Shown here piece after piece: positions 25,134 to 43,408 of a DNA stretch of 53,961 nt (within the stretch, counting starts at the first letter, position 1; each line of letters begins with the position of its first letter). This DNA is from an uncultured Thermomicrobiales bacterium (GTDB lineage Bacteria > Chloroflexota > Chloroflexia > Thermomicrobiales > UBA6265). The notes below the pieces were generated by a model. That model did no database searches, was not told the DNA's origin, and worked only from the letters and a program-made list of their open reading frames with translations. The stretch spans positions 1-53,961 of the forward strand of contig CADCWF010000333.1 of the NCBI GenBank assembly GCA_902806345.1, read 5' to 3'. A program made the translations under genes and the position numbers.

Positions 25134-25880
25134 CTAGCCGACCTGCGCCAGGACCTCGTCGGTCACTTCGAGGTTCGTGTACACGCCCTGGACATCGTCC
25201 AGGTCCTCGAGCTTCTCGACCAGCCGGATGACCTTGACCGCCACGTCGGGCTCGGGAGCCAGCATCGTCTTCGGCTTCATCGTCAACTCGGCCGCGGAGA
25301 TGATGAACCCGGCCTCCTTCAGCGCCTCCTGGACGGAATGGAGGTCCTGCGTCTCGGTGTAGACCTCGACAGTGCCGTCCTCTCCCTGGACATCGGCGGC
25401 ACCGGCGTCGATCGCCCGGAGTGCGATCTCGTCGGGGTCTGCCTCGGTCGCGTCCAGTTCGATCAAGCCGACCTGGTCGAACATCCAGCCGACGCTGCCC
25501 GATTCCCCGAGCGTGCCCCCCGCCCGCGTCAAAGCCGCCCGCACCTCGCCGACGGTGCGGTTCCGGTTGTCCGTCATAGCCTGGATCATCAGGGCGGTGC
25601 CGCCGGGTCCGTACCCTTCGTACCAGATCTCGTCGTAGTTGACGGCTCCGCTTTCGCCGGCGGCGCGGGCGACCGCCCGCTCAATGTTGTCCTTCGGCAT
25701 GCTCGACGCGCGTGCTCGGTCGATCGCCAATCGGAGCCGGACGTTGTACTCAGGGTCGGGAAGACCCTGCCGGGCGGCGACGGAGATCTCGCGGGCGAGC
25801 TTGGTGAACAATTGCCCGCGCTTGGCGTCGGCGGCACCCTTTGCCCGCTTGATGGTTGACCATTTCGAGTGCCCGGACAT
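25134..25880 (-). CDS. yebC: YebC/PmpR-family transcriptional/translation regulator
   Basis: The protein has 248 residues. The YebC N-terminus [20 protein letters not shown] is almost invariant, followed by [23 protein letters not shown] and YEGYGPGG near 90. Then [21 protein letters not shown] and a C-terminal acidic domain follow. Family members act as DNA-binding regulators, and related proteins relieve ribosome stalling at proline stretches (family knowledge). The ATG at 25880 is fixed by this conserved N-terminus. It starts the yebC-ruvC-tlyA-larB operon and is divergent from rpoD. Confidence 0.93.
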
Positions 25881-25954
25881 CGCAGAGACGCTCCTGAGAA
25901 CCCGGCGCAGGGCGCCTCCACGGCGTGGCGTCCGGGCATGACAATGCCGCAAAA

Positions 25955-25960
25955 AGTATA
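25955..25960 (-). promoter_or_regulatory. -10 element (TATACT) upstream of yebC
   Basis: On the minus strand, TATACT in the context GTGTATACTTTTTG lies about 75 bases upstream of the yebC ATG. No good -35 was found at 17 bases. Confidence 0.45.
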
Positions 25961-26066
25961 CACGCGGGTAGAAATCATCCCCGCCAGTGAAGGGCAGGGC
26001 GGCGTTGCTCGAGGGGCAATCCAGAGGCGCCGCATTCGGGTCACTGACGACGTTTGCAAAAAAGGC

Positions 26067-26095
26067 TTGAAATATAAGCAAAGCTTGGCTACACT
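26067..26095 (+). promoter_or_regulatory. rpoD promoter
   Basis: TTGAAA (26067-26072), a 17-base spacer and TACACT (26090-26095) are present in an unusually AT-rich patch. The expected transcript start near 26102 gives a leader of about 214 bases before the rpoD ATG. Confidence 0.8.
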
Positions 26096-26147
26096 CGGGC
26101 CAGCCTCCTTCCCCGTAGGGATACCGAACCGGTTTCAGCGCGACGAC

Positions 26148-26217
26148 GCGAGGGGATCATGCCAGCCCGCACTGGTCGTTATCCGCCGGTCCAGCACGCC
26201 CGATATTAACCCTCCGC
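26148..26217 (+). promoter_or_regulatory. Possible antiterminator helix in the rpoD leader
   Basis: GCGAGGG (26148-26154), which contains the leader-peptide Shine-Dalgarno, can pair with CCCTCCGC (26210-26217) in seven base pairs with one bulge. That pairing uses the 5' arm of the terminator, so the two structures exclude each other. Confidence 0.45.
26159..26209 (+). CDS. Putative 16-residue leader peptide of rpoD
   Basis: A 16-codon frame ([19 protein letters not shown] at 26207-26209) follows the strong ribosome site GAGGGG 4 bases upstream (26150-26155). Its stop codon touches the first base of an intrinsic terminator hairpin. The codons include three Arg, two Tyr and a Pro-Pro pair, places where a ribosome could pause. 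It lies between the rpoD promoter and the rpoD start, which is the standard arrangement of a ribosome-controlled attenuator. The reading frame is an inference from position and ribosome site; no homologue is recognised. Confidence 0.6.
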
Positions 26218-26235
26218 CCGAAGCGGTGGGTTTTT
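26209..26235 (+). terminator. Intrinsic terminator inside the rpoD leader
   Basis: ACCC-T-CCG, a 7-base loop (CCCGAAG) and CGG-T-GGGT form a 7-bp stem with one T-T mismatch. It is followed by TTTTTGTTT. It lies about 80 bases before the rpoD start codon, so it can only act as a conditional terminator. Confidence 0.65.
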
Positions 26236-26315
26236 GTTTGCCGTTCGCCGCGCTCGGCCTTGCCTTCCCGCATCCCTCCACGGCAGCGCTCGCACGCAAG
26301 GTGGTGAAGCGATCC

Positions 26316-27524
26316 ATGGTTAGCAGCCTGATCGCCAAAGGTAAGGACCAGGGCTACCTCCTTTCCGACGATATCGTCGCCGCCTTCCCGAACGCCGAAG
26401 ATCAACTCGACCATCTCGAAGAGTTCTACACATCCCTCGTCGCCGAAGGAATCGAGGTTGTCGATCAGGCACCGGCCGCGGCGCCGATCCCGCTGCCGGT
26501 TCCGATCAAGGTCGTCGCGAAGAACCGCGAGAGCGGGCAGCCCGCTGCCGAGCGCCCGCTCGACCGGGCGACCGAGCGGTTGGTCGAGCGGGCGGCCGCC
26601 CACGACGACTACTCGGCTGGGGTCGGCGACTCGGTGCGCCTCTACCTCCAGGAGATCGGCGAGACGGACCTGTTGACGATGCAGGAGGAGGTCTGGCTGG
26701 CGAAGCGGATGGAGCGAGGCAAGCAGGCCGAAGACTCGATGCTCGACCCGATGCTCTCGGGCGAGGAGCGGGCATCGTTCCTGGCGGACAAGGAGGACGG
26801 GGAGGCCGCCCGTTGCCACCTCATCCAGGCCAACCTGCGGCTCGTCGTTTCCGTCGCCAAGAAGTACGTCGGCCGCGGCCTTTCCTTCCTGGACCTCATC
26901 CAGGAGGGGAATATCGGCCTGATGAAGGCGACCGACAAGTTCGACCACAAGCGGGGTTTCAAGTTCAGCACCTACGCCACCTGGTGGATCAGGCAGGCGA
27001 TCACCCGCGCCATTTCCGACCAGAGCCGGACCATCCGCCTCCCCGTCCATGTCGGCGAGACGATCAACCGGGTCAAGAAGACCGGCCACCGTCTCCAGCA
27101 GATCCTCGAGCGGGAGCCGACCCAGGAAGAGATCGCGCGGGCGATGGACGTGCCGGACGACAAGGTTCGTCAGGTCCTCGACGTCTCCCGCCACCCGGTC
27201 TCCCTCGAAGCGCCGGTCGGTCAGGACGGCGACGCCTTCCTCGGCGACTTCATCGAGGACGAGACGATGCCGCAGCCGATCGAGCTGGCATCGCAGGAGC
27301 TGCTGAAATCGCAGATCGGCGACGCCCTCGACAAACTGACCGATCGCGAGCGGAAGATCATCGTCCTTCGCTTCGGCCTGGAGGACGGTCGCTTCCGCAC
27401 CCTGGAGGAAGTCGGCCGCGAGTTCGGCATCACCCGCGAACGAATCCGCCAGATCGAAGCAAAGGCGCTCCGCAAGCTGCGCCACCCTTCCTACAGCCGC
27501 AAGCTGCGTGGCTATCTCGAATAG
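26316..27524 (+). CDS. rpoD: Primary RNA polymerase sigma factor (sigma-70, RpoD/SigA)
   Basis: This is the housekeeping sigma factor, with 402 residues from ATG 26316. Region 1.1-like helical start ([18 protein letters not shown]), Pro/Ala linker, region 1.2 [11 protein letters not shown] near 105 and region 2 [19 protein letters not shown] near 172 are visible. So are [13 protein letters not shown], the -10 recognition segment [15 protein letters not shown] near 216, region 3 and region 4.2 [20 protein letters not shown] near 365. GTG 26301 is an alternative start. A 214-base leader with a terminator-like hairpin precedes it, so expression may be attenuated. Confidence 0.95.
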
Positions 27525-27597: not shown

Positions 27598-28845
27598 CTA
27601 TCCCCTAAACGCTGAGAAGATGAGTGACACGTTGTGGCCGCCGAAGCCCATCGAGTTGCTCATGACGTGGCGGAGCGGGGCGGGGCGGGCTGTGTTCGGC
27701 ACGTAGTCGAGGTCGCAGTCCGGGTCCGATGTCTCCTGGTTGATCGTTGGCGGGATAACCCCGTGGCGAATCGCCTCGACCGCGATGGCGCCTTCGAGGG
27801 CGCCGGCCGCGCCGAGCAGGTGACCCGTCATCGACTTGGTCGAGCTGATCGGCACCTGGAAAGCCCGGTCCCCGAACACCGCCTTGAGCGACTGCGTCTC
27901 GAACTTCTCGTTGAGCGGCGTCGAGGTGCCGTGGGCGTTGACGTAGTCGATAGCACCCTGGGAGAGGCCCGCGTCCTCCAGTGCCGCCTGCATCGCGCGG
28001 GCGGCGCCGGCACCGCCGGGCGCCGGTTGGACAACGTGGTTGGCGTCATCGGTTGCCCCGTACCCGGAAAGCTCCGCCAACGGCTCGGCGCCCCGGGCCA
28101 GTGCACCGTCGAGCGATTCGAGGATCAGGACGGCGGCGCCTTCGCCGATGACGAACCCATCGCGGCCACCGTCGAACGGCCGGCTCGCCGCCGGCGGGTT
28201 GTCGTTGCGGGTGGAGAGGGCGCCCATCGCGTTGAAGCCGGCGATGCTGAGCGGCGTCACCGCGGCCTCCGAGCCCCCGGCGAGCATGACATCGGCCCAG
28301 CCTCGCCGGATCATCATCGCGGCCTCGCCCAAGGCGTGGGCGGACGAGGCGCAGGCCGAGACGGGCGCGTAGTTGGGCCCGCGGGCGCCGACCGTCAGGG
28401 CCACCACACCGGAGGCCATGTTCGGCAGGAACATCGGCATGAAGAAGGGCGAGATCCTACCCGGTCCTTGCTCGAGCAGTGTCTTCGCTCCCGCTTCCAG
28501 CGTCTCGATCCCGCCCATGCCGCTGCCGATCAAGGCTCCGACTCGATCCGCGTTTGATTCGTCGATCCGCAGCCCGGATTGGGAGAGCGCCTCCTGAGCG
28601 GCGACGACCGCAAGCTGGGTGTAGCGGTCGGCCCTGCGGGCCTCCTTTCGGCCCATCGTGGCAACCGGATCGAAGCCGACCACCTGGCCGGCGATCCGGG
28701 TCTGGAGCGCCGACGCATCGAACCGCTCGATCGGCCTCACCCCGGAGCAGCCGGCGGCAAGCGATTCCCAGGTCGAGCCGCGGTCGAGCCCGACCGGGCA
28801 GACCACCCCGATCCCCGTCACGACCACCCGCCGCGGTTCGATCAT
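27598..28845 (-). CDS. fabF: Beta-ketoacyl-ACP synthase II
   Basis: This condensing enzyme of fatty-acid elongation has 415 residues. The nucleophile Cys lies in SACASSAHALG near 165, the first His in NAHGTSTPLNE near 305 and the second in STKSMTGHLLGAAGA near 335-349. The N-terminal VVVTGIGVVCPVG and DGRDGFVIGEGAAVLILE near 225 are typical. It ends 74 bp from rpoD in convergent orientation. Its upstream region holds the 6S-like RNA, transcribed away from it. No fabD/fabG/acpP is adjacent. Confidence 0.94.
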   Translation of the reverse strand: MIEPRRVVVTGIGVVCPVGLDRGSTWESLAAGCSGVRPIERFDASALQTRIAGQVVGFDPVATMGRKEARRADRYTQLAVVAAQEALSQSGLRIDESNADRVGALIGSGMGGIETLEAGAKTLLEQGPGRISPFFMPMFLPNMASGVVALTVGARGPNYAPVSACASSAHALGEAAMMIRRGWADVMLAGGSEAAVTPLSIAGFNAMGALSTRNDNPPAASRPFDGGRDGFVIGEGAAVLILESLDGALARGAEPLAELSGYGATDDANHVVQPAPGGAGAARAMQAALEDAGLSQGAIDYVNAHGTSTPLNEKFETQSLKAVFGDRAFQVPISSTKSMTGHLLGAAGALEGAIAVEAIRHGVIPPTINQETSDPDCDLDYVPNTARPAPLRHVMSNSMGFGGHNVSLIFSAFRG

Positions 28846-28947
28846 CTACCCTTCTCCGCTTCCCCGCCGCCGTCTCCGATCTGCGTCCACGCTCCATCCT
28901 ACCCCGCCGATGTGCAACACGGCGGGGCTCTCCGGTGGTCGCCGCAT

Positions 28948-28977
28948 TGCTGCCGGCCGGACGACGGTGGTACGCTC
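28948..28977 (+). promoter_or_regulatory. Candidate promoter of the 6S-like RNA
   Basis: TTGCTG (28948-28953), an 18-base spacer and TACGCT (28972-28977) predict a transcript start near 28984. That matches the 5' end of the closing stem found independently. Confidence 0.55.
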
Positions 28978-28983
28978 GTCTCC

Positions 28984-29145
28984 AAGCCGGTCCTGCGGTG
29001 TTCGTGATGTTGTCCGTGGTCTTGAGCCGATAAAGAAACGAGTCCGGGAGCTCCCAGCCGGACGGTGTTCCGTCCGGGGCCGGGGCGCCCACCTGCGAAA
29101 GCAGGTTCAAGACTCCGTTACACACGGCACAGGCAGGGTCGGCTT
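28984..29145 (+). ncRNA. ssrS: 6S RNA (ssrS-like)
   Basis: The interval between fabF and holA has the shape and words of 6S RNA, which binds sigma-70 holoenzyme. The closing stem AAGCCGGTCCTGC (28984-28996) pairs with GCAGGGTCGGCTT (29133-29145) over 13 bp including two G-U. An inner stem GTCTTGAGCC / GGTTCAAGAC (around 29018 and 29104) matches the conserved TTGAGCCGATA and GGTTCAAG elements of proteobacterial 6S RNAs. GCGGTGTTCGTGA after the closing stem is also 6S-like. Inside are a CCGGACGG/CCGTCCGG hairpin and ACCTGC-GAAA-GCAGGT. The length, about 162 nt, is slightly short for the family. It is judged by eye, not by covariance search. Confidence 0.72.
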
Positions 29146-29189: not shown

Positions 29190-30260
29190 GTGATCGTCCT
29201 CGTCCACGGCCCCGACGCCGCCATGGCCCGCGGTGCTGTGGCCGACCTCGTTCGTGCCCACGACCCCGAGGGCGCGAACACGAGCGCGTTCGACGGCAAG
29301 GAGCATCCCCTCGCCCAGATCATCGGCGCCGCCGGCAGCGCGGGTTTCTTCGGCGTCGGTCGGGTCGTCGTCGTCCGCGACCTCATGGCCCGAGTTCGAG
29401 GCGGCAAGAACGCGACCGAGAACGACGGCGACGATAGCCAACCTGGCGCGCTCGATCTTGGCCCACTATTTGCCGCGGTGCCACCGGAGAACCTGCTAAT
29501 CCTGGTCGACCCGGTCCTCTCGTCCGTCCCGGCCTCGGTCAGGAGAGCGGCTCCGAAGGACATCCGGGTAATTGCCGGCGACCCACCACGCGGGCGGGAC
29601 TTGATCGGCTGGATCATCCGGGCCGCGGCCGAAACCGGCGGCGAGATCGACGCCGGGGCGGCAAAGCTGCTCGTGGAATCCCTCTATCCGCAGACGTGGT
29701 CGGCGAAGCCGAACAACCCGCGGTACGACCGGCCGCCCGATCTCGACCTCCTGCGTTCCCGGTTGGAGACGCTGGTGCTGTACGCCCACCCGGAAGCGGT
29801 TGCGCCAGCCCACATTCGGGCGCTCACCGAAGGCGCTCCCGACGACCGCATCTTTAGGTTCGTCGAGGCCGCGGCGACGGGAGACCTCCGGACGGCGGTG
29901 GCAGAGCTGGACGAGTTGCTACTGGCGGGGGAAGAGCCGGCAAAACTGTTGGCCCAGGTGTACGGGCAAGTCGAGTTAGGTGCCGTCGCCGAGGTCGGGG
30001 GCCGGCTCGACCCAACGGAGATCGGCCGCCAACTCGGCCTGAGCAACCCCGCTCAGATGACCGCGGTTTCGCGGGGTAGGCGGTCGGCCCGAACCGGCGT
30101 GGATTCGGCGGTCGCAGCCGCGGTCGAGACCGAGCGAGGGTTCAAGACCGGTCGGATCCGACAACCCACCGATGCGCTGCTGGCGTTGCTCGTCCGGCTC
30201 TCCGAACGGCAGGAGCCCGGCTCGCAGGGCGGCCGGGCTCCTGAGCGGATGGGACGGTAG
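29190..30260 (+). CDS. holA: DNA polymerase III delta subunit
   Basis: This clamp-loader subunit opens the beta clamp. It has 356 residues. The N-terminal pattern MIVLVHGPDAAMARGAV, FFGVGRVVVVRDL near 54 and NLLILVDPVL near 110 fit DNA_pol3_delta. AKLLVESLYPQTWS replaces the usual helical lid, and the C-terminal collar contains AEEPAKLLAQVYGQV-like sequence near 252. An insertion (GGKNATENDGDDSQPG near 75-90) is unusual. GTG 29190 has AAAGG 7 bases upstream. Its last codons contain a strong hairpin, and rpsT converges on it. Confidence 0.86.
   Translation: MIVLVHGPDAAMARGAVADLVRAHDPEGANTSAFDGKEHPLAQIIGAAGSAGFFGVGRVVVVRDLMARVRGGKNATENDGDDSQPGALDLGPLFAAVPPENLLILVDPVLSSVPASVRRAAPKDIRVIAGDPPRGRDLIGWIIRAAAETGGEIDAGAAKLLVESLYPQTWSAKPNNPRYDRPPDLDLLRSRLETLVLYAHPEAVAPAHIRALTEGAPDDRIFRFVEAAATGDLRTAVAELDELLLAGEEPAKLLAQVYGQVELGAVAEVGGRLDPTEIGRQLGLSNPAQMTAVSRGRRSARTGVDSAVAAAVETERGFKTGRIRQPTDALLALLVRLSERQEPGSQGGRAPERMGR
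30211..30242. terminator. Perfect 11-bp hairpin at the holA/rpsT convergence
   Basis: AGGAGCCCGGC and GCCGGGCTCCT pair perfectly across a 10-base loop inside the last codons of holA. It is 28 bases past the rpsT stop on the minus strand. Neither side has a clear T-run, so it may be a bidirectional roadblock or 3'-end stabiliser more than a classic terminator. Confidence 0.45.
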
Positions 30261-43332: not shown

Positions 43333-43408
43333 GCGCCCGTAGCTCAGCGGATAGAGCGCTTGCCTCCGGAGCAAGAGGCCACAGGTTCGAGTCCTGTCGG
43401 GCGTACCA
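43333..43408 (+). tRNA. tRNA-Arg (anticodon CCG)
   Basis: A complete 76-base cloverleaf is visible. The acceptor GCGCCCG pairs with CGGGCGT (first pair G-U). The D-arm is GCTC/GAGC. The anticodon stem is CTTGC/GCAAG with loop CTCCGGA, giving anticodon CCG. The T-arm is ACAGG TTCGAGT CCTGT. The discriminator is A and the CCA end is encoded. It reads CGG arginine codons, which are common in this high-GC sequence. Confidence 0.97.

Follow-up and report, generated by a model that had tools for sequence, protein, structure and literature searches.

The 6S RNA locus

The window (the whole stretch of DNA analysed, 53,961 nucleotides of contig CADCWF010000333.1 from an uncultured Thermomicrobiales bacterium) carries a 6S RNA gene, ssrS, between the divergent fabF gene and holA (Table 1). 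This small RNA, found in many bacteria, turns off RNA polymerase during starvation. An Infernal search with the Rfam 6S model, which the initial annotation had suggested as a check, returned a score above threshold: the RF00013 match spans 28987-29143 (+), covers the full model (1-187) and reaches 72.0 bits against a gathering cut-off of 46.4. It is the single RF00013 match in the whole genome (5.08 Mb). The ssrS gene that had been proposed for a probable Chloroflexota genome is thus real, and the genome does belong to this phylum, in the order Thermomicrobiales. E. coli ssrS (L120) scores 139.8 bits in the same model, and the far lower score of the window gene is expected because it is a distant member of the family. 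In addition to RF00013, a lineage model, R1, was built from 28 order-level sequences.

Table 1. Positions of the 6S RNA gene, its sequence elements and other genes in the window
Feature	Position	Strand	Basis or remark
RpoD-family sigma factor gene	25869-27524	+	TIGR02393, 362 bits (cut-off 354); 1.5 kb from 6S
fabF	27598-28845	-	TIGR03150, 593.7 bits (cut-off 493.75); divergent upstream neighbour; synteny
-35 element TTGCTG	28947-28952	+	In 12 of 14 family members, TTG precedes the -10 by 17-20 nt
Extended -10 element TGGTACGCT (TGG-TACGCT)	28968-28976	+	TG[GC]TAnnnT in most of 14 family members
6S RNA (ssrS), predicted mature RNA of ~162 nt	28984-29145	+	RF00013; R1, 157.4 bits over 28984-29145; covariation
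Closing stem, 5' strand AAGCCGGTCCTGC	28984-28996	+	Pairs with GCAGGGTCGGCTT at the 3' end (to 29145)
Word GCGGTGTTCG	28995-29004	+	Sequence
Predicted pRNA template (5' central bubble and 5' strand of downstream helix)	29018-29031	+	Aligned to E. coli U44 / B. subtilis C40
Inner stem, 5' strand GTCTTGAGCC	29019-29028	+	Consensus helix 5, 100% of cells paired
Word TTGAGCCGATA	29022-29032	+	Sequence
Predicted alternative helix, 5' strand AACGAGUC	29037-29044	+	Forms with template blocked; permutations; pair counts
3' central-bubble hairpin ACCTGC-GAAA-GCAGGT	29091-29106	+	Window fold; consensus helix 8
Inner stem, 3' strand GGTTCAAGAC	29104-29113	+	Consensus helix 5
Predicted alternative helix, 3' strand GACUCCGUU	29111-29119	+	Template-blocked fold; permutations; pair counts
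holA (DNA polymerase III delta)	29190-30260	+	TIGR01128, 116.7 bits (cut-off 80); conserved neighbour, 44 nt downstream
tRNA-Arg(CCG)	43333-43408	+	Sole tRNA in the window

Fold and promoter

The RNA has the rod-shaped fold of 6S RNA, with a closing stem, a central bubble and an apical arm, and the closing stem, the inner stem and the listed words all lie where the initial annotation had placed them. Its fold energy is -85.2 kcal/mol, compared with -63.3 +/- 4.8 kcal/mol for dinucleotide shuffles (z -4.6), and none of 200 shuffles was as stable. In the alignment of the 28 order-level sequences, standard pairs occupy 93.8% of cells and both sides have changed in 28 of 52 pairs; these values were reached by 0 of 500 shuffles, and slid controls were 37-43% paired. 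Without relying on Rfam, this covariation gives strong evidence that the RNA fold is under selection. A small hairpin on the 3' side of the central bubble is probably formed already in the free RNA, as the predicted fold suggests. Open reading frames cross the interval on both strands, but a coding function was rejected: indel lengths in the alignment do not keep to multiples of three, and the constraint tracks the base pairs.

Upstream of the gene, TTGCTG, an 18-nt spacer and TGGTACGCT form a promoter layout that is conserved in the family. Among 14 aligned family members, the TTG of the -35 element and the TGnTAnnnT of the -10 element are nearly invariant and the spacer is variable, the distance from TTGnnn to TG[GC]TAnnnT in relatives being mostly 17-18 nt. 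The candidate promoter of the initial annotation is therefore upheld, and transcription is predicted to start at ~28983-28984, where the closing stem begins (28984). As judged from sequence, the 6S gene is thus a discrete gene with its own promoter. A generic sigma-70 scan did not call this promoter because its hexamers are GC-rich and weak. No clear intrinsic terminator was found downstream of the 6S 3' end, so a longer transcript, extending in the direction of holA, may be processed to give the RNA.

Synteny and distribution in Chloroflexota

Wherever contigs are long enough, the family of the window bacterium shares the gene order ruvC(-) yebC(-) rpoD(+) fabF(-) 6S(+) holA(+) rpsT(-) murJ(+) lepA(+). 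The linkage of rpoD to the 6S gene is maintained through the family, and two more RpoD-like genes lie on other contigs.

RF00013 matches were found in 41 of 61 relatives and R1 matches in 44 of 61; the R1 alignment and model find divergent 6S members that Rfam misses. Across the phylum, 78 of 400 Chloroflexota genomes exceed the Rfam cut-off and 99 of 400 match RF00013 at E 0.001. A pattern derived from the 3' central-bubble hairpin also matches contigs of Thermomicrobiales, Sphaerobacteraceae and Chloroflexia bacteria. Wehner et al. (2014), as cited in PMC7726162, had already reported 6S RNA in Chloroflexi. The 6S genes of other Chloroflexota have different neighbours, and longer apical arms are found in other classes. 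One Chloroflexi MAG contig (L087) carries two tandem 6S genes, at 171-343 and 429-600, with 50.8 and 79.0 bits, both above the Rfam cut-off.

Four members of the window family gave no 6S match; in one (G014) holA lies at a contig end and three have no holA match with a distant query, which is consistent with assembly gaps. A sister subclade in family f3 presents a different picture: neither RF00013 nor R1 matches in 13 genomes of genera g22, g29, g32 and g33, several of them at 99% completeness. A holA gene was found in 10 of the 11 of these 6S-less genomes that were searched for it, and around these genes (L122-L129, L131 and L132, from g22, g29 and g32) no 6S RNA was detected, even when filters were switched off or E was relaxed to 10. 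Loss of 6S RNA, or its drift beyond recognition, is likely in this subclade.

Could the RNA be a cis-acting 5' leader of holA, similar to a riboswitch or an attenuator, with no more than a likeness to 6S RNA? Its position would suit such a leader, since the RNA and holA are on one strand, with the RNA upstream and only 44 nt between them, and nearly all relatives share this arrangement. However, the match to 6S RNA is full length and includes the 6S-specific words and the central bubble, the same RNA is found elsewhere in other Chloroflexota classes (no match to holA, fabF or rpsT was found near the 6S genes of L031-L058), and several sister genera retain holA without the RNA. The leader reading was rejected on these grounds and is very improbable. 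The results confirm that Thermomicrobiales have long had the 6S system, passing it on vertically and keeping it at one fixed place before holA. The gene, its fold and covariation, the conservation of its promoter and the synteny are all direct observations on Thermomicrobiales 6S RNA.

Relation to proteobacterial 6S RNA

The window RNA resembles E. coli ssrS in its rod fold, closing stem, central bubble, GAGCCGAU template region and GGUUCAAG partner, and in fitting the Rfam model end to end. On the other hand, it is shorter (162 versus 184 nt), shares little primary sequence identity outside this core, has a preformed 3'-bubble hairpin and lies before holA, whereas the E. coli gene lies between zapA and fau.

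The initial annotation was right about an ssrS gene in Chloroflexota, but its second inference, that the primary sequence stays unexpectedly close to proteobacterial 6S RNAs, did not hold for E. coli, the one proteobacterium compared. When the 162 bases were searched with blastn, E. coli genomes and plasmids yielded nothing, and ssrS was not matched even at E 10. In the R1 model, E. coli ssrS scores 16.9 bits, a Bacillales 6S RNA 61-72 and the window 157. In global alignments scored over shuffles, E. coli was the lowest of 14 6S RNAs (z 3.1), with 5.8 for a Bacillales 6S RNA and 6.6 to 23 for Chloroflexota. The 6S RNA of the window is closest to that of its own genus, at 84% identity; it was not found to be nearer to proteobacterial 6S RNA than to that of other phyla, E. 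coli alone representing the Proteobacteria.

One short word is nearly the same in both: TTGAGCCGATA is identical to E. coli CTGAGCCGATA except for the first letter. It occurs in the genus of the window (L001, L002 and L004), and outside this genus the GAT variant is limited to two further genera of the family (L017 and L028). Most other readable 6S RNAs of the phylum have TGAGCCAAC or TGAGCCAAT, and the phylum norm is TGAGCCAACA (AAC). The FabF tree groups the window genus as a clade with support of 100/99, and three changes are required on it to account for GAT. Because the word is genus-restricted and GAT requires these changes, its likeness to E. coli is best read as a derived genus-level change. 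A recent acquisition of the gene from Proteobacteria would also explain the shared letters, but the gene occupies the same locus with a vertical-looking spread through the order, most relatives have AAC and, of the 6S RNAs aligned, E. coli's is the least similar. On the grounds of synteny and sequence distance, horizontal transfer from Proteobacteria was rejected as even less probable than a holA leader. The case shows that a short word shared with E. coli may have arisen as a genus-level change and should not be taken for a sign of proteobacterial ancestry. The 6S gene itself is unremarkable: it belongs to a well-known family, here in a lineage, Thermomicrobiales, that has been little studied.

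The 6S RNA of a Bacillales MAG (UBA6259; L083, 732-917, -) has a 3'-bubble hairpin word in common with Thermomicrobiales and an R1 score in the range of 61-72 bits, far above that of E. coli. The possibility that this contig is a mislabelled Thermomicrobiales sequence was rejected: it has 36.6% GC and no shared neighbours, and it holds a genuine low-GC 6S locus (93.6 bits).

The predicted pRNA template and release of RNA polymerase

Polymerase binding, pRNA synthesis and refolding are established for the 6S RNAs of E. coli and B. subtilis, and the RNA binds the sigma70/sigmaA polymerase as an open-promoter mimic (PMC8876501). The pRNA template is the 5' central bubble, with the start at U44 in E. 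coli and C40 in B. subtilis. In E. coli-type release, a 9-bp 3'-bubble hairpin forms after unwinding, whereas a central bubble collapse helix is formed in the B. subtilis/Aquifex type; a small 3' hairpin is also present in free B. subtilis 6S RNA (PMC8876501).

In the window RNA, the aligned template word GAGCCGAU is found at 29024-29031, within the 6S template region, and the predicted pRNA is 5'-AUCGGCUCAAGACC, copied from 29031 towards 29018. When the template (29018-29031) was blocked in folding, 29037-29044 paired with 29111-29119, in the arrangement of a collapse helix. Across the 28 sequences, cognate strands average -6.7 kcal/mol compared with -4.9 for re-assigned strands, and 0 of 20000 re-assignments reach the cognate mean (shared ancestry uncorrected). 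The five-pair core of this helix has 80.7% standard pairs, and four pairs have changed on both sides, again with shared ancestry uncorrected. The helix is not predicted in families f3 and f4, nor in two members of the family to which the window belongs. Together with the preformed small 3'-bubble hairpin, the predicted pairing of the 3' strand of the downstream helix with the distal 5' bubble resembles B. subtilis 6S-1. These data moderately favor a central-bubble collapse helix in Thermomicrobiales 6S RNA, and the predicted refolding is Bacillus/Aquifex-like, not gamma-proteobacterial.

By analogy with the 6S family, polymerase binding, growth-phase control, pRNA synthesis and release may be expected here as well. 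Transcription would begin at the gene's own extended -10 promoter between fabF and holA, and the RNA would fold into a rod whose central bubble mimics an open promoter. The rod would bind the RNA polymerase holoenzyme with the housekeeping sigma factor and repress it when growth stops. Upon the return of nutrients, the polymerase would copy the short pRNA, the hybrid would open the inner helix, the freed 3' strand would pair with the distal 5' bubble, and the polymerase would be released. We assign a probability of about 0.97 to the explanation as a whole, namely a single-copy 6S gene with its own promoter in this gap, encoding a polymerase-repressing RNA that is released via pRNA.

The predicted start of the pRNA differs within the order. 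Most relatives have C at this position, which predicts a G start like that of B. subtilis 6S-1 (C40); the genus of the window has U, predicting an A start like that of E. coli and unlike that of B. subtilis 6S-1. The predicted pRNAs would be AUCGGCUC (A start) in the window and GUUGGCUC (G start) in a GCCAACA relative. In B. subtilis, pRNA synthesis is sensitive to how concentrated the starting nucleotide is. A switch of the start base could for this reason retune how these bacteria sense nucleotide recovery; we offer as a tentative and rather doubtful suggestion that the base switched repeatedly between C (G start) and U (A start) in Thermomicrobiales, in the window genus to A, on a Bacillus-type refolding scaffold. 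In another Chloroflexota class (L031-L047 and L050, L033 and L045 included), the 6S RNAs have an almost invariant apical-arm word, ACGCGATAGGCYTGAGCCAAGGCGG, which is more conserved than the adjacent stems and repeats the TGAGCCAA of the pRNA template.
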